A stretch of DNA of 64,000 nt from Thioalkalivibrio thiocyanoxidans ARh2 (GTDB lineage Bacteria; Pseudomonadota; Gammaproteobacteria; Ectothiorhodospirales; Ectothiorhodospiraceae): NCBI RefSeq assembly GCF_000385215.1, contig NZ_ARQK01000057.1, positions 1-64,000 of the forward strand, in the 5' to 3' direction. The notes below the pieces were generated by a model. It was not told the origin of the DNA. It ran no database searches and worked only from the letters and a program-made list of their open reading frames with translations. Of the stretch, positions 301 to 9,623 are shown piece by piece; positions within the stretch are counted from its first letter, which is position 1, and every line of letters begins with the position of its first letter. Position numbers and translations under genes: made by a program.

Positions 301-1590
301 ATGCATGCACTCCCCTCATCGGAAGAGATTCGCCTCGGGGTTATCGGACTGGGTTATGTCGGCCTGCCGCTGGCGGTCGAGTTCGGCCGGGTATGGCCGA
401 CCCTGGGATTCGACATCCAGCCCGGCCGCATCCAGGACCTGAAGAACGGCGTCGACCGCACCCGCGAGGTCGAGCCGGAAGATCTCGCTGCCGCGACGCA
501 CCTGGACTACACCACGGAGCTCGAGGCGCTGCGCCCGTGCAATGTCTTCGTGGTGACCGTGCCGACACCGATCGATGCCCACCGCCGACCGGACCTGCGC
601 CCCCTGCTCGGGGCTACCCATACCGTGGGGCAGGTGCTCAAGCGGGGCGACGTGGTGATCTACGAGTCGACGGTCTATCCGGGGGCGACGGAAGAAGACT
701 GCGTCCCGATCCTGGAACGGGAGTCCGGGCTGACCCACAACGAGGATTTCTTCACCGGCTACAGTCCCGAGCGGATCAATCCCGGGGACAAGGCGCACCG
801 GGTCACCTCCATCAAGAAGGTCACCTCGGGTTCGCTGCCGAAGGTGGCGGACTTCGTCGACGCCCTGTATGCGCGCGTCATCACCGCCGGCACGCACAAG
901 GCCGAGAGCATCCGTGTCGCCGAGGCCGCCAAGGTGATCGAGAACACCCAGCGCGACGTGAACATCGCCCTGATCAACGAGCTGGCGCTGCTGTTCGAGC
1001 GCCTGGAACTCGATACCGAGGCGGTCCTGCAGGCCGCCGGGACCAAGTGGAACTTCCTGCCGTTCCGGCCCGGGCTGGTGGGCGGGCACTGCATTGGGGT
1101 GGACCCGTACTACCTGACACACAAGGCCCAGGCCGTCGGGCACCACCCGGAGATGATCCTGGCCGGGCGCCGCGTGAATGACGCAATGGGGGCCCACATC
1201 GCGGATGCGACCATCCGTGCACTGGTGCGCAAGGGGATCAATCCGGTGGGGGCACGCATCCTGCTGATGGGCCTGACCTTCAAGGAGAACTGCCCGGACC
1301 TGCGCAACACGCGCGTGATGGACATCTACCATACGCTGCGCGGATACAACACCGAGGTCGTGGTGTTTGACCCCTGGGTCGACCCGGAAGAGGCCGAACA
1401 CGAATACGGGATTACGCCGATCACCGCGCGCCCCGAGGCGGATTCGTTCGACGCCATCATCGTGGCGGTACCCCACCAGGCGTTCCTGGACATGGGGGTG
1501 GATACGATCCGCGCCCTCGCGCACCCGCAAGCGGTTCTGTTCGACGTGAAATCGGTCTTCCCGCGCGAGGCCAGCGACCTGCGCCTGTGA
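301..1590 (+). CDS. tviB: UDP-glucose/GDP-mannose dehydrogenase family, TviB/WbpO-like
   Basis: A cytoplasmic NAD-dependent enzyme that oxidises the C6 hydroxyl of a UDP-sugar to a uronic acid for capsule, O-antigen or exopolysaccharide synthesis. The 429-residue protein opens with the Rossmann motif GLGYVG (residues 16-21). The catalytic cysteine, Cys264, sits in [12 protein letters not shown], and the C-terminal domain has the usual [14 protein letters not shown] motif. The closest type is UDP-N-acetyl-glucosamine/galactosamine 6-dehydrogenase, but the true substrate cannot be read from sequence. The ATG is preceded by GGAAGAG. The next genes (exported beta-helix protein, VanZ-like protein, methyltransferase) suggest the end of a surface-polysaccharide locus extending left of the window. 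Confidence 0.9.
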
Positions 1591-4613: not shown

Positions 4614-5328
4614 GCAGCGCTGGCGCCAGCGCTTTACCCAGCGCGGCAGCCAGTGCGACGACGATGCGGCGATCGCGGGCTGGACGCCCACCGGGCTGGC
4701 CAGCCGGGTACGCCAGTTCCAGTCGTTCTGGCAACAGAGCCGACCCCCCGGCGCGCAATGGCTGGATATCGGCTGCGGGGCCGGCACTTACACCCGACTG
4801 CTTCAGGCGGAAGGCCGCAGCCCGATCGGGCTGGACTACTCCGCCCCGTCACTGCACAAGGCGCGACGGCGCAGCCCCGCCGCGATCGACTGGCTGGCGG
4901 CGGATGTCCACCGCCTGCCGTTCGCCGATGGCGAGTTCGATGGCGTGCTCTGCTTCGGGGTGATGCAGGCGCTGGCCGACTCGCGCCCGGCTCTTGCGGA
5001 GATGCATCGCGTGCTGCGCCCCGGCGGCGAGATCTGGGTGGATGCGCTGAACGCCAGGACATGGCCCACCGTGCTGCAGGAGCGTCGACGGGTCCGTGCC
5101 GGGAAGGCACCCCATCTGCGCTACGAGACCCCCGACTCGCTGCAGGCGGGGGCGCGCACGGTCGGCCTGCAGCCACTGGCGTGCTACTGGCTGCCCCTGG
5201 TCCCGGGCCGGCTGCGCTGGCTCCAGGGCCCGGCCGAGAGCCGCTGGGCCAGGGCCATTTGGCAGGCATCGCCATGGACCGCGGAGCGGTTGTGTCACTC
5301 GTTCATTCTGCGTGCACGCAAAGGGTGA
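4594..5328 (+). CDS. class I SAM-dependent methyltransferase
   Basis: A 244-residue cytoplasmic methyltransferase. The SAM-binding loop is DIGCGAG (residues 58-64). It is followed by the acidic end of beta-2 (IGLDYSAPSL), then ADVHRLPFADGEFDGVLCFGVMQAL and EMHRVLRPGGEIWVD, the Methyltransf_11 pattern. The substrate is unknown; a sugar, lipid or small molecule is likely given the neighbours. I chose GTG 4594 because AGGCGGGA lies just upstream and the methyltransferase fold begins soon after; it starts inside the end of the VanZ-like gene. The stop codon is immediately followed by the first of two regulatory-looking dyads. Confidence 0.8.
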   Translation: MTNSSFEQRWRQRFTQRGSQCDDDAAIAGWTPTGLASRVRQFQSFWQQSRPPGAQWLDIGCGAGTYTRLLQAEGRSPIGLDYSAPSLHKARRRSPAAIDWLAADVHRLPFADGEFDGVLCFGVMQALADSRPALAEMHRVLRPGGEIWVDALNARTWPTVLQERRRVRAGKAPHLRYETPDSLQAGARTVGLQPLACYWLPLVPGRLRWLQGPAESRWARAIWQASPWTAERLCHSFILRARKG

Positions 5329-5411
5329 GTGTAAAAGGGGGTGACACTCCTGCGTGGCCTTGGGCGTGCCGGCATCGGCGAACGGCTACCAGTGTCAGCG
5401 CCTTTTACACA
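5328..5411. promoter_or_regulatory. pair of 21-bp dyads, putative enhancer/operator sites
   Basis: Two 21-bp sites, 5328-5348 and 5391-5411, each have the form AGTGT-N11-ACAC(T/A). They are also reverse complements of each other: 5329-5348 and 5391-5410 match at 18 of 20 positions with a 42-base gap. Their centres lie about 181 and 119 bases upstream of the start site predicted from the sigma-54-like promoter at 5493-5508, the distance expected for bacterial enhancer-binding protein sites. The binding protein is unknown. An alternative is an RNA hairpin terminating the methyltransferase gene, but there is no U-tract. Confidence 0.5.
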
Positions 5412-5492
5412 TCCTTCGCAGCAACGACCCTGATGGACCCCTTGGTATTAGAAAAAGCCTTCCAAACAGTGGATTACACCGCTGCTGATTTG

Positions 5493-5508
5493 GGGTATAG
5501 ATATTGCT
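5493..5508 (+). promoter_or_regulatory. candidate sigma-54 promoter of the modification cassette
   Basis: GG at 5494-5495 and GC at 5506-5507 are exactly 10 bases apart, and the -12 element reads TTGCT. The -24 element (GGGTAT) is weaker than the TGGCAC consensus. Predicted start near 5519 gives a leader of about 160 bases before the ATG at 5682. The upstream dyads fit sigma-54 control, which needs enhancer sites. Confidence 0.45.
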
Positions 5509-5681
5509 CTGTGTTTTGGTTGTCGTCGCGAATACGTGCGGCTACACAAATTCAGCGACCGAATGCGAAATCCCGGGTGACCCGGACTAGGATCAAGCCA
5601 GGAGGCCTGGACAGCCCGCGTCTCCCTGCACGCGATACCGCTCCAACCAAGGCCCGGTCCCGATCATTCTGGAGGGACACG

Positions 5682-6389
5682 ATGGAACAAAACGACAACC
5701 AGGACTCGAGCCGGCGCCAGGAGGGGCTGGGTACACACGGCCACAATCGACGTCGCCTTAGCCGGGCGATGCTCGGGGCAACCCCCCTGCTGATGACCCT
5801 GCATGCCTCGCCGCTGAAGGCGGCCGGTGCGAACTGCATGCCCTCGGGCTGGGCGTCCGGCAATGTGTCGCGCCACGATGGGCCCCAGGACTGCGGCGGC
5901 CACTCTCCCGACTACTGGAGCGGGGGCTACGACCCGACGCACGCGAGTCTTTCACTCAATGACAGTGGCCAGGGCCGCGGCGGGGGCCAGCTGTTCAACA
6001 GCGCCTCCTTCCACAGCCATCCGGAATGGCGGCTGGCGGTGGAGTCCGGCGTCCTGTTCGATTCGAACTACGGCTTCCCGGGCGTAAGCCGGGGCTTCCA
6101 GGAAGAGGACGGGGACCTCACCATGATCGGGGCCGTCTCCGCTTCGGTGTTCGTACTGGATGTGCAGGGGGCAGCCGAGCGCGAAGTGATCCGTTATGGC
6201 ACCGCCGCATTATTGAATGCCAAGTACACCACCGGGTACCCGCTGTCCGAACGTCTGGTGCGGGACATCGTCACTGACACCCTGGAGCATGGCCACTACG
6301 AGACCGATGGCGGCGACCGCCTGTACCCCGAGCAGGTGTATCGGTTCCTGGAGAACACCATGGGCCTCCCGAGCTGGGGGTCCGCCTGA
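5682..6389 (+). CDS. exported protein with RR leader, probable substrate of the cassette
   Basis: I do not recognise this 235-residue protein as a named family. Its leader is long and polar, then RRR (residues 23-25), a hydrophobic stretch LGATPLLMTL (31-40) and small residues to about 48, so it resembles a Tat-type or modified signal peptide. Directly after it comes a motif with the only two cysteines: CMPSGWASGN (C52 onward) and CGGHSPDYW (C71 onward). The rest is hydrophilic. GGAGG lies 6 bases before the ATG. As the first gene of the cassette with PqqD-like, kinase-like and nucleotidyltransferase genes immediately after, it is the natural candidate for the modified or carried polypeptide. 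That role is inference. Confidence 0.65.
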   Translation: MEQNDNQDSSRRQEGLGTHGHNRRRLSRAMLGATPLLMTLHASPLKAAGANCMPSGWASGNVSRHDGPQDCGGHSPDYWSGGYDPTHASLSLNDSGQGRGGGQLFNSASFHSHPEWRLAVESGVLFDSNYGFPGVSRGFQEEDGDLTMIGAVSASVFVLDVQGAAEREVIRYGTAALLNAKYTTGYPLSERLVRDIVTDTLEHGHYETDGGDRLYPEQVYRFLENTMGLPSWGSA

Positions 6390-6441
6390 GCCATTCATTC
6401 CGTAATGGCCGCCGTAATAGCCGGAATCCAGGGGGAACGAT

Positions 6442-6708
6442 ATGTCGCGCCGCAGGTGGCAACGGACTGACGGGCTGCAACAGCGCACCCTGGGGCAGGA
6501 GTGCGTGGTGTTTCACCCCGGGGCCGGCACAACCCACTTGCTGACACCCGCGGCCGCCGCGCTAATGGACGGCCTGGCCGAGGGCGTGGCGATGGACGAG
6601 GCCGCGCTGGCCCGGCACCTGGGCCTGTCGGAGGAGGACGGGGAGGCCGAACTGAGGCGCTGGCTGTCCAGCCTGCAAAGCGCCGACCTGATCCAGGAAC
6701 GCCCCTGA
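6442..6708 (+). CDS. PqqD-like protein, HPr-rel-A type peptide chaperone
   Basis: An 88-residue protein of PqqD size. PqqD-fold proteins bind leader peptides of ribosomally made substrates and present them to modifying enzymes. The diagnostic stretch is ECVVFHPGAGTTHLLTPAAA (residues 20-39), followed by helices rich in Ala and Leu. The ATG is preceded by AGGGGG. Its stop overlaps the kinase start by one base (TGATG), so the two are translationally coupled. From memory, such proteins beside HprK-like kinases are catalogued as the HPr-rel-A system; that name should be checked against the family models. It likely recognises the leader of the upstream protein. Confidence 0.75.
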   Translation: MSRRRWQRTDGLQQRTLGQECVVFHPGAGTTHLLTPAAAALMDGLAEGVAMDEAALARHLGLSEEDGEAELRRWLSSLQSADLIQERP

Positions 6709-7619
6709 TGCGTATCGCGGATCTGGGACAGACCCGGCTCCAGTGCAGCCTGGCGGGCCGTGGCCTTTATCTGCGCACGGGCCCCTTCACCAGCCGCATC
6801 CAGAGTCCCATTGCCAGCGTGGCCCGAAGCATCGAGTCGCTGTACCGGGACTTCGAGGTAGCCGACAGCCAGGGCTTTTACGACTTTCACTGCGAGCTAC
6901 GTGCACCACGTTCCCACCGTCGCTTCTATCGGCCCCAGGTCCTGTTTCTCTCCGACCGTCGTAGCGTCTTCAAGCCCCTGGCCTACCACCAGGCCTATCC
7001 GATGCTCGAGTGGGGACTGAACTGGTGCATCGCCAACCAGGTGCCGCATCGACTGGTACTGCACGCGGCCGCCCTCGAACGCGACGGGAAGGCCCTGATC
7101 CTGCCCGCCCCGCCGGGCTCCGGGAAAAGCACCCTCTGCGCGGCCCTGGCCCATCACGGATGGCGCCTGCTGACGGATGAATCCGTCCTGGTGGATCTGG
7201 CCACCAGCGAGGTCTCCGGGCCCGCCCGGCCGGTGAGCCTGAAAAACGACTCGATCCGCGTGATCCGCGACGCCTGCCCCTCGGCTGTCCTGAGCACGCC
7301 GATCGCGGACACGCTGAAGGGCGCCGTGGCGCACATGCGCCCGCCGACGGATGCCGTGCGCCGCGGTCACGAGACCGCCCGGCCCGGGTGGATCGTGTTC
7401 CCGCGCTACCAGCCAGGAGCCCCCACCCGGCTGAAACCGCGCACGGCGGGTTCCGGGTTCATGCAGCTGATCGCCAATGCCTTCAATTACGCTGCCCTCG
7501 GGGCACGGGGCTTTCACAGCGCCGGACGACTGGTCGAACAGTCGGCATGCTTCGACTTTTCCTACAGCCGTCTGGACGAGGCCATAGAGCAGTTCGACAG
7601 GCTGGCCGATGGACGCTGA
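6708..7619 (+). CDS. HprK-related kinase A (P-loop protein)
   Basis: A 303-residue cytoplasmic protein whose C-terminal half resembles the catalytic domain of HPr kinase/phosphorylase. The Walker A loop is PGSGKST (136-142), followed by an acidic LLTDESVLVD segment (154-163) and PVSLKN, all placed as in HprK. The N-terminal ~120 residues do not resemble the HprK N-terminal domain. No ptsH-like gene is nearby, so the phosphorylation target is unlikely to be HPr. It overlaps the PqqD-like gene by 1 base and the nucleotidyltransferase by 11, so it is part of one translation unit. A Ser/Thr kinase or nucleotide-dependent modifying activity on the upstream exported protein is inferred. Confidence 0.75.
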   Translation: MRIADLGQTRLQCSLAGRGLYLRTGPFTSRIQSPIASVARSIESLYRDFEVADSQGFYDFHCELRAPRSHRRFYRPQVLFLSDRRSVFKPLAYHQAYPMLEWGLNWCIANQVPHRLVLHAAALERDGKALILPAPPGSGKSTLCAALAHHGWRLLTDESVLVDLATSEVSGPARPVSLKNDSIRVIRDACPSAVLSTPIADTLKGAVAHMRPPTDAVRRGHETARPGWIVFPRYQPGAPTRLKPRTAGSGFMQLIANAFNYAALGARGFHSAGRLVEQSACFDFSYSRLDEAIEQFDRLADGR

Positions 7620-8727
7620 CACCGCACTGCATCTGGCACTGGCACGGCCGGAGAGCATGGCCGAGCGCTCGGCGGCCGAGTGGGCCCCGCTGCTGGCGGC
7701 CGCGCGCGAGAGCGCGCTGCTGGGTACGCTCTGGCACCTCGCGGACGACGCGGGCCTTGCCGAAGACCTGCCGGAACCGGTGGCCAGCCACCTCTGGGGG
7801 GCAGCCCTGATCGCCGAGCATCGGTCACAGGCGCTGGTCTGGGAGCTGCACCGTCTGGCAGAAGGATTGCTCTCACGGATGAGCCCGGGTGTCGCGCTGA
7901 AAGGCGCGGCCTACCTGGCCGCCGGGCTGCCGAATGCGCGTGGGCGGCTGGCCAACGACATCGATCTGCTCTTTCCCCGCAGCGAAGTGGAACGAGCCGA
8001 GAAGCTCCTGTTCTTCGAGGGCTGGTCGGGCACGCATCACAACGTCTACGACCAGCGCTACTACCGCGAGTGGATGCACGAACTGCCGCCACTGGTGCAC
8101 CAGCACCGGGGCACCACGCTGGACCTGCACCACAACATCCTGCCGGAAACGTTTCGCGGGCATCCCGACCCCGCGCGCCTGCGGCAGCAAAGCCAGGCAC
8201 TCCCGGAACCCTTCCGCTTCCGGGTCCTGTGTCCGGCGCACCTGGTACTCCACGCGATCGTGCATCTGTTTTCGGAGACGGAATGGGACCGGGGCCTGCG
8301 CGACCTGTACGACATCCATGTGCTGCTCGACCACTTCGGTGCCCGTGACGGCGATGCCTTCTGGGAGCACTTCGTCGCGGAGGCCGAGGCCCTGAACATT
8401 GCCTGGATGGCGGAACGCGCGCTGTGGACCGCGAACCGACTACTGCTGACCGAGATTCCTCCCGAGCCCGTGAAACGGCTGGCCCGGGCACGCGCGGGCA
8501 TTGCACTGCGGGGACTTGGCCGCTGGTCATTCGTGCACGGGCTGCATACGCGTGCCGGCTCGATCACCCCCCGCCGCGATGCGGTCGCGCGGGGCATGCT
8601 GTTTCTGCGCGGGCACTGGCTCAAGATGCCGGCCGGCCTGCTGGCCCGGCACCTGTTCCACAAGGCCTTCCTCGCCGAAAAACCGGAGACGGCCACGGCC
8701 CAGCCGCAGCCGGATCAGCACGGTTAG
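7609..8727 (+). CDS. nucleotidyltransferase family protein (NTP_transf_5-like)
   Basis: A 372-residue protein with the nucleotidyltransferase signature: VALKGAAYL (residues 95-103), a basic stretch, then NDIDLL (116-121), where D117 and D119 would bind the metal. This is the uncharacterised NTP_transf_5 pattern, known next to polysaccharide genes and PqqD/HprK-like cassettes. It could transfer a nucleotide or nucleotide-activated group to protein or to a small molecule. The start overlaps the kinase by 11 bases. The TAG stop codon lies inside a small repeat (8724-8781) that also supplies the stop of the convergent protease gene. Confidence 0.75.
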   Translation: MDADTALHLALARPESMAERSAAEWAPLLAAARESALLGTLWHLADDAGLAEDLPEPVASHLWGAALIAEHRSQALVWELHRLAEGLLSRMSPGVALKGAAYLAAGLPNARGRLANDIDLLFPRSEVERAEKLLFFEGWSGTHHNVYDQRYYREWMHELPPLVHQHRGTTLDLHHNILPETFRGHPDPARLRQQSQALPEPFRFRVLCPAHLVLHAIVHLFSETEWDRGLRDLYDIHVLLDHFGARDGDAFWEHFVAEAEALNIAWMAERALWTANRLLLTEIPPEPVKRLARARAGIALRGLGRWSFVHGLHTRAGSITPRRDAVARGMLFLRGHWLKMPAGLLARHLFHKAFLAEKPETATAQPQPDQHG

Positions 8728-8781
8728 GGAGTCGCAACGCCGTGCGAATGCGAGCGCGCGATTGAATCAGCCTCTCCCTAA
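8724..8781. repeat. 58-bp mini repeat with TTAGGGAG ends, at convergent gene ends
   Basis: Ends are TTAGGGAG (8724-8731) and CTCCCTAA (8774-8781). The interior contains CGCAACGCCGTGCG and TTGAATCAG, both found in the larger repeat copies, so this is a shrunken relative. The stop codons of both convergent genes (TAG 8725-8727 and, on the other strand, 8780-8778) fall inside its ends. It may act as a bidirectional transcript end. Confidence 0.6.
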
Positions 8782-9623
8782 CCATCCGGCTGCGAGCGGT
8801 ACTGTTCCAGCAGGGGACGAATGCGGTCCGAGGGGATGGCGTAGGTAATGCCACTGGGGTTGCGTACGGCGGCTTCCCTTCCACCCTGGACGTAGACCTG
8901 ATTGATCACCCCGATCACCTCGCCAGTGTCCTTGCGGTACAGGGGGCTGCCGCTGTTGCCCGGATAGGCCGTCGCATCCAGCTGGAAGACCATCGGCGGG
9001 GCGTTGCGCAGGGCCCGTATCCGGCTGTCATCCAGCTCCGAGGAATGCCGGGCCGGGATCGCCATCGGGGTCATCGCCGAGATCCCTGCGCGATGGGTGG
9101 CCGGATACAGCCCCAGGATCATGCCGATCGGGTAGCCGGTGAAGGCAACCTCCTCCCCGACCCTTGCCCGGCTGGAATTGCCAAGCGTCAGCGCGGGAAG
9201 GGAGGGTGGCGCAATGTGCAGCAGGACCAGGTCATCGCTCGCGGCGCGTGCCACGACCTCGGCATGATGGATGGTGTTGTCCCGGCCCTGGCCGCTGACC
9301 ACCACCAGTCGTTCCCGGTTGTCCTGGTCCAGATCCCCCGGCAGGACATGGTCGTTGGTGACCACCAGTCGGCCATCGTCGATCACGAAGCCGGTCCCGA
9401 GATACTGGGCGCGTGGGCTGCGGGTCGGCTGATAGGTCGCGATACTCACCACCGAGGCCTTCACCCGCTCGGCCGTGTCGGGCAGCGGATCGGCGAGCGC
9501 CTGGCCCGGCGCAATCACCAGGGCAAGCAGCACAAGCGGTGTCGCTATCCAGAGCGGGACCCGCTGGCGCTTGCAGTGAACGACCGCTCGAAGGCCCCCA
9601 TGAAGGTGTCCCCATGCCCACAT
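8778..9623 (-). CDS. exported trypsin-like serine protease (S1 family)
   Basis: A 281-residue exported protease. The N-terminus has a basic region and a hydrophobic segment (LWIATPLVLLALVIAPG) ending in QALA, a likely signal-peptidase site. The catalytic triad is visible: His92 in VTNDHV, Asp131 in SDDLVLLH and Ser224 in PGNSGSPL. This matches the HtrA/trypsin protease domain without a PDZ domain, so it is simpler than DegP. GGAGG 7 bases before the ATG supports the start. It converges on the modification cassette, so a joint role is possible, but nothing in the sequence demands it. Its likely job is periplasmic proteolysis or protein quality control. Confidence 0.8.
   Translation of the reverse strand: MWAWGHLHGGLRAVVHCKRQRVPLWIATPLVLLALVIAPGQALADPLPDTAERVKASVVSIATYQPTRSPRAQYLGTGFVIDDGRLVVTNDHVLPGDLDQDNRERLVVVSGQGRDNTIHHAEVVARAASDDLVLLHIAPPSLPALTLGNSSRARVGEEVAFTGYPIGMILGLYPATHRAGISAMTPMAIPARHSSELDDSRIRALRNAPPMVFQLDATAYPGNSGSPLYRKDTGEVIGVINQVYVQGGREAAVRNPSGITYAIPSDRIRPLLEQYRSQPDG

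Follow-up and report, generated by a model that had tools for sequence, protein, structure and literature searches.

A twin-arginine-leader protein as candidate substrate of the HPr-rel-A enzymes in Thioalkalivibrio thiocyanoxidans

What do the enzymes of the HPr-rel-A system act on? The question is raised by a 64,000-nucleotide stretch of Thioalkalivibrio thiocyanoxidans ARh2 DNA (contig NZ_ARQK01000057.1, positions 1 to 64,000; hereafter the window), which encodes, in this order on the forward strand, a putative exported protein with a twin-arginine (RR) leader, here called X, a PqqD-like protein, an HprK-like kinase, and a nucleotidyltransferase-like protein (NT); all four genes are real. 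No substrate is assigned to these enzymes in the models and literature that we searched, and the leader-tagged partner gives them a candidate one. On balance, we regard the cassette as a probable substrate-and-modification unit, in which the PqqD-like protein would bind the leader, the kinase would phosphorylate a serine, the NT would extend this modification, and the twin-arginine translocation (Tat) pathway would export the product. Our literature search returned no paper on "HPr-rel-A", on PF14907, or on an HPr kinase combined with PqqD and a twin-arginine leader, and none of the papers listed for broader queries, as judged by their titles and abstract openings, described the pairing of X with these enzymes. 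What is new here is the partner family, its cargo types, the leader that they share, and the pairs encoded in trans.

Conservation of X beside the HPr-rel-A enzymes

The original prediction had given the name HPr-rel-A to such cassettes, and a hidden Markov model search bore this out: the PqqD_rel_X, HprK_rel_A, and NTP_transf_5 genes all scored above the curated cut-offs of their models (TIGR04353, TIGR04352, and PF14907; Table 1), the first of which carries the title "HPr-rel-A system PqqD family peptide chaperone". By these sequence models, the enzyme part of the cassette is the HPr-rel-A system, already known and named. Its membership rests on TIGR04352 and TIGR04353, both passed well over cut-off, with the PqqD gene adjoining the kinase gene; the PF14907-type NT beside the kinase is a constant feature of the loci examined.

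The pairing of X with the three enzymes, also proposed in the original prediction, was found in many genera by a neighborhood survey; the pairing thus withstands the refuting condition set there, that no other genome would show it. Among 47 genomes of the bacterial family, the window's own included, 24 encoded HprK_rel_A over cut-off, and the lists of open reading frames (ORFs) of all 24 loci contained an RR-leader protein just upstream of the kinase genes; in one of them (L018) this protein has lost its GYW motif. Used as the query, X (P0002) detected relatives in 12 of these 47 genomes, none of them farther than about 0.9 kb from a kinase match.

A second set, the named loci, comprised the best 80 of 547 confirmed relatives, a sample that leans to the window's type. 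The four-gene order repeats across its genera, which include Thioalkalivibrio, Halorhodospira, Thiobacillus, Sulfuricella, Massilia, Duganella, Noviherbaspirillum, Gallionella, Nitrotoga, Rhodocyclus, and Malonomonas. The type-1 partner family, to which X belongs, occurs in gamma- and betaproteobacteria and in a single delta-type one (Malonomonas), and other cargo with the same kind of leader occurs in two further groups. Profile-free all-against-all clustering recovered the HprK-like protein and the NT in all 80 loci, X in 74, and the PqqD-like protein in 71; the remaining clusters among the 25 largest were antisense ORFs over these genes or were found in at most 30 loci each. Profile searches detected X in 78, PqqD in 77, and the NT in 80 of these loci, L094 being cut by a contig end and L097 lacking a PqqD match. 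It should be noted that 51 of the 78 partners found with the X profile had served to train it, which makes this count circular; the independent checks on the pairing are the profile-free clustering and a held-out leader model.

The third sample consisted of 398 Pseudomonadota genomes, 61 of which encoded HprK_rel_A over cut-off. The X profile, A2, gave 36 matches in 35 of the 398 genomes, and 27 of them adjoin HprK_rel_A, including one (G219) beside a kinase fragment at a contig end, where the kinase is apparently split over two contigs. As A2 includes six proteins of this sample (the window's own and five others), we also counted without them: 21 of the 30 remaining matches adjoin the kinase. 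One of the 36 lies beside a below-cut-off kinase (G190) and eight lie elsewhere, namely, those in G388 and G330 (post-leader part only), that in G129, which looks like an ordinary transporter protein, the leader proteins of G171, G127, and G115, whose own kinase loci lack X, the match in G283, and a second match in G155. With the leader model, which was trained only on the named loci, 41 of the 61 loci scored a leader ahead of the kinase gene (E < 0.1) and two scored one elsewhere, both times in leader proteins adjoining the kinase, one of them on the opposite strand. This test was held out because only the window's own locus is close to the training loci: the identity is 93% there, and the kinases of the other 60 reach at most 63% to one of the named loci. 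By any criterion, partly by eye, a leader protein is present nearby in 54 of the 61 loci.

As a separate observation, an RR-leader, Cys-rich peptide is encoded at the G190 locus (L232) next to the HprK-like kinase and an apparent radical-SAM gene.

Conserved sites of X

For the RR-leader partners tried, no matching model exists in NCBIfam or Pfam. X itself matched no model of either database at E ≤ 1, ten other RR-leader proteins matched none in NCBIfam at E ≤ 0.01, and nine leader proteins and one leaderless GYW-domain protein matched none in Pfam at the same threshold. Conservation within the family is clear-cut at a few positions. In an alignment of 42 type-1 partners, R23, R24, S55, S59, and the start Met are invariant, and W79, A176, L178, and N179 are nearly so; R23-R24 is also invariant in the 36/36 partners of another alignment. 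The RR pair is present in 78/78 named partners and the pattern S[GA]xxS, anywhere in the protein, in 77/78, compared with 125/623 other ORFs of 180–290 aa. The partner family thereby supplies named residues for testing.

The original prediction had suggested surveying neighborhoods for an RR-leader protein with a CxxSGW/GGxSPDYW motif. We rejected GYW as a mark of the system: 16 of the 78 partners fall outside a GYW-like pattern (several of these retain YW), the region is less conserved, and matches to the post-leader part alone occur in two genomes without an over-cut-off kinase (G388 and G330, the latter with a visible GYW). We likewise rejected the idea that a C-terminal Ser is the universal acceptor, the C-terminal residue being variable in the 78 partners (Ser in nine) and not conserved in type 1. 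X does not seem to be a lipoprotein, as no Cys was found at a fixed position after the AxA in alignment A2. A Tat substrate would be expected to carry a twin arginine followed by a hydrophobic stretch; X has both, the stretch being assigned by eye, and TatC (tatC) is encoded in the same genome.

The predicted structure of X has a mean predicted local distance difference test (pLDDT) score of 72.8, rising to 82–95 across residues 161–230. Compared with the PDB, it gave nothing at E ≤ 0.001 with Foldseek (best E 1.4) and a best Z of 2.9 over 62 residues with VIA-align; that is, no relative was found, which does not imply a new fold. This well-predicted C-terminal region bears on an alternative in which X would be the precursor of a true ribosomally synthesized and post-translationally modified peptide (RiPP) and would be trimmed to a small modified peptide, with the neighboring trypsin-like protease as a conceivable agent. 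Such a fate would suit a PqqD-like protein that, by sequence, resembles a RiPP recognition element (RRE) and adjoins leader proteins in relatives, and it would suit the relatives of the protease, which occur on both sides and on both strands near 25 of the 80 named loci and near 8 of 40 fetched ones. The protease was not found, however, in 55 of the 80 named stretches, and a region modeled at such pLDDT values and holding the nearly invariant A176, L178, and N179 is unlike a disposable tail. We consider a RiPP of this kind quite unlikely.

Predicted activity of the kinase and the NT

Both enzymes look active, judging by their conserved residues. In the kinase (P0003), H119, K140, D157, and E158 are invariant in 13 aligned sequences; we take these to be the catalytic set, following the H-K-D-D motif described for the lasso kinases and the catalytic residues of HprK itself. 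In the NT (P0004), D117, D119, and D172 are invariant in 24 sequences, and this D-x-D plus a third D probably forms a metal-binding Asp triad.

The predicted NT structure (pLDDT 90.5) gave no PDB match at E ≤ 0.001 in Foldseek, in which JHP933, LnuA, and ANT(2'')-Ia were found at probability 1.00 and E values of 0.004–0.06; VIA-align placed it with the MenT1/MenT family (Z 12.5, 176 residues, 2.8 Å). The model thus appears to have the fold and the Asp triad of the MNT/ANT-type nucleotidyltransferases (ANT(2'')-Ia, LnuA, JHP933, MenT), although its identity to them is only 8–17% in the rows with Z ≥ 8. FKRP, a polyol-phosphate transferase, was also among the VIA-align matches (Z 5.4), and the donor of the NT therefore cannot be read from the fold. 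When P0004 and the X profile A2 were searched by sequence against the PDB, nothing credible came up.

HPr is an unlikely target

HprK_rel_A shares the P-loop and the H-K-D pattern with HPr(Ser) kinase/phosphatase (HprK), and its closest solved structures by sequence are HprK-type protein-serine kinases, at a weak score (1jb1, E 0.043). This distant kinship, together with the HPr encoded in the genome (113.1 bits), might suggest that HprK_rel_A is a second HPr kinase/phosphatase and that its neighbors are passengers. Against this, a genuine HprK (PF07475, 192.6 bits) is encoded 1.4 kb from HPr on contig C47, with RapZ-like and EIIA-like ORFs (named by eye) between or beside the two, and P0003 scores only 11.3 bits on PF07475 (cut-off 33.3) and 14.6 bits on TIGR00679 (cut-off 240). 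The original prediction had relied on the lack of a nearby phosphotransferase system (PTS) gene. This holds for the nine cassette neighbors scanned, but the argument is weak alone, as the genome does encode HPr; the conclusion drawn from it, that the kinase is unlikely to act on HPr, stands because HPr has its own HprK. We therefore rejected HPr as the target, and a second HPr kinase seems highly improbable.

One kind of leader, several cargo types

Two further cargo types were recognized behind an RR leader. Type 2, from eight loci of one family, is a short protein that carries C[FY]ASLQ close to the C-terminus, and type 3, from 23 loci, is a protein ending in a CWxSF-like sequence. It is important to note that these types were chosen by their motifs, so that C[FY]ASLQ and CWxSF are themselves no evidence; the presence of CWxSF near the C-terminus of all 23 type-3 proteins is circular.

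In two genomes, the leader protein is encoded apart from the kinase and beside a PqqD gene of its own (G171 and G115; 61.8 and 49.0 bits with a custom PqqD profile). The stretches around these leader proteins (8.0 and 6.0 kb) contain no HprK match, and the kinase lies elsewhere in the genome.

Two further arrangements were seen in passing. A genome of the same genus (G015; L191/L025) has a below-cut-off HprK-like cassette (95.6 bits) with NT-like and PqqD-like (13.0 bits) genes and two RR-leader proteins, the leader containing LPEKW and PAHA. At L189:3407-3616, only 7 bases separate the end of a 69-aa RR-leader peptide from the ORF for a distant HprK-like kinase (65.3 bits).

A proposed order of modification and its lasso-peptide precedent

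In the mechanism that we favor, the PqqD-like protein would recognize the leader of X, or else the polar residues ahead of it, and would present X to HprK_rel_A, which would phosphorylate a serine of mature X, most likely in S55-G-x-x-S59. The NTP_transf_5 enzyme would then add a nucleotide or a sugar to the phosphate, or might transfer such a group directly. Modified and folded X would be exported by Tat and the leader removed; the leader would be read twice, by the PqqD-like protein and by Tat export. Tat carries folded proteins, and modification before export would fit for this reason. We infer the leader binding, the phosphorylation and its site, the added group, the Tat export, and a role near exopolysaccharide or exosortase systems; the analysis itself shows the gene identities, the conserved order, the tight pairing of leader protein and kinase, the conserved catalytic residues, tatC, and the separate HprK.

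A precedent is found in lasso peptides. Lasso B1 proteins are PqqD-like. As described in two reviews (PMC9266682, PMC8498205), the kinases PadeK, ThcoK, and SyanK phosphorylate a C-terminal Ser, and in pseudomycoidin PsmK phosphorylates a Ser and PsmN, annotated as a nucleotidyltransferase, adds hexose to the phosphate; an alternative left open there for PsmN is nucleotidyl transfer followed by a host glycosyltransferase. The pseudomycoidin and paeninodin systems (PsmK/PsmN, PadeK, ThcoK) resemble the cassette in combining an HprK-like kinase and a nucleotidyltransferase-annotated protein with one ribosomal substrate, and the order of modification of X could be like pseudomycoidin tailoring, but on a Tat-exported protein. 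They differ in having a cyclase C and a B2 protease, neither of which was found among the eight flanking proteins of the window that were scanned, and in a precursor with a conserved C-terminal Ser, whereas X is a 235-aa exported twin-arginine-leader protein without one. If the proposal is true, kinase/nucleotidyltransferase tailoring of lasso peptides would be extended to exported proteins, and the leader could be used to steer phosphorylation to chosen proteins ahead of Tat export.

Several points weigh against this proposal. The modification of X and the binding of its leader by PqqD are themselves inferred. The precedent kinases modify a Ser at the C-terminus, a position at which X shows no conserved residue; the lasso kinases also have D-D where HprK_rel_A has D-E. 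The cargo types are alike only in their leader, with no universal acceptor site apparent, S55 and S59 being specific to type 1. One named locus (L100) has neither X nor PqqD. Seven of the 61 phylum loci lack a nearby leader protein: that of G235 runs into a contig end, three genomes (G171, G127, and G115) have a leader protein elsewhere, and none was found in G068, G314, and G260.

Exosortase and polysaccharide context

Exosortase was scored with PF09721 (E ≤ 0.001) in the 398-genome sample, in which many genomes are incomplete. It was present in 32/61 kinase-positive and 50/337 other genomes (Fisher p ~1e-9, uncorrected for kinship). By cargo type, as assigned by us and with 18 genomes left without a type, it was found in 11/11 type-1, 9/9 type-2 (the eight plus G287), and 5/23 type-3 genomes. 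The kinase and an exosortase share a contig in 19 genomes and lie within 60 kb of each other in seven of these. One instance of this co-occurrence is G000:C59:32665-33420. Some loci are flanked by genes for an exosortase acyltransferase, an XrtA export protein, and PEP-CTERM proteins; six such neighbors, chosen by eye, were scanned from five loci (L066, L082, L093, L110 twice, and L116), and they included one lytic transglycosylase-like protein and one TviB-like dehydrogenase. This context suggests a possible role for the cassette at the surface or in the matrix. A bolder extension, which we regard as a long shot, is that HPr-rel-A builds a serine-phosphodiester link on a surface protein exported by Tat, and that this protein serves to prime or anchor the exopolysaccharide or matrix of exosortase-type systems. 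This would make for a new kind of bacterial protein-glycan linkage, with a transferable leader able to mark any protein for it.

The same context lends itself to another explanation: all the information would reside in the leader, X would be a bystander partner in export or maturation, and the kinase and the NT would have a different target, for instance a precursor (a sugar or a polysaccharide) used by the exopolysaccharide systems nearby. The exosortase found in every sampled type-1 and type-2 genome, the exopolysaccharide-type genes near some loci, and a cargo that varies by clade would all agree with it. The two genomes that keep a PqqD-like protein by the leader protein, both away from the kinase, argue the other way, as a leader protein that is itself the client should show this pattern; so do, weakly, the protein-serine kinases of the HprK kind that are the nearest solved relatives of the kinase (E 0.043). 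We judge a bystander role for X unlikely and retain X as the candidate substrate.

Locus layout and neighborhood

The original prediction had located the PqqD-like, HprK-like, and NT genes correctly, together with their overlaps, a TGATG junction at 6706-6710 between the first two and 11 shared bases at 7609-7619 between the last two. The observation was confirmed, with some details to refine. Only the last three genes overlap: X starts at 5682, with GGAGG ahead of its ATG, and 52 bases lie between its end and the PqqD gene; base 5328 is the final base of the upstream methyltransferase gene, and the 353 bases that precede X have no assigned gene. A simple sigma-70 scan of this upstream region returned no promoter. 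The coordinates of the features are given in Table 1.

Table 1 Features of the cassette and its surroundings, in window coordinates
Feature	Coordinates	Strand	Remarks
TviB-type UDP-GlcNAc C-6 dehydrogenase, polysaccharide-synthesis context, outside the cassette	301..1590	+	610.6 bits, cut-off 592
Region without assigned gene, expected promoter region	5329..5681	+	No sigma-70 consensus in scan
Partner X (P0002, 235 aa), putative exported protein with RR leader and candidate substrate	5682..6389	+	No family match; kept upstream of the enzymes
X leader, about residues 1-48: polar extension, R23-R24, hydrophobic TL stretch, AxA-type end	5682..5825	+	Cleavage site by eye
C52-x2-S55-G56-x2-S59-G60-N61-x-S63, candidate modification site	5835..5870	+	Most conserved stretch of mature X
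SPDYW (residues 75-79), PGYW motif as found in the window	5904..5918	+	W79 nearly invariant
PqqD_rel_X (TIGR04353), presumed leader-binding protein	6442..6708	+	59.5 bits, cut-off 35
HprK_rel_A (TIGR04352), HprK-related kinase A (P0003)	6708..7619	+	415.6 bits, cut-off 200
NTP_transf_5 (PF14907), nucleotidyltransferase-fold enzyme (P0004)	7609..8727	+	180.9 bits, cut-off 31.2
Trypsin_2 serine protease, hydrophobic/signal-like N-terminal stretch (by eye), optional fifth neighbor	8778..9623	-	

Upstream of the cassette lie the genes for the methyltransferase, a VanZ-domain protein, and the TviB-type dehydrogenase, and downstream, on the opposite strand, those for the trypsin-like protease and housekeeping functions. 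The Trypsin_2 protease at 8778-9623 is a possible maturation protease of the cassette.

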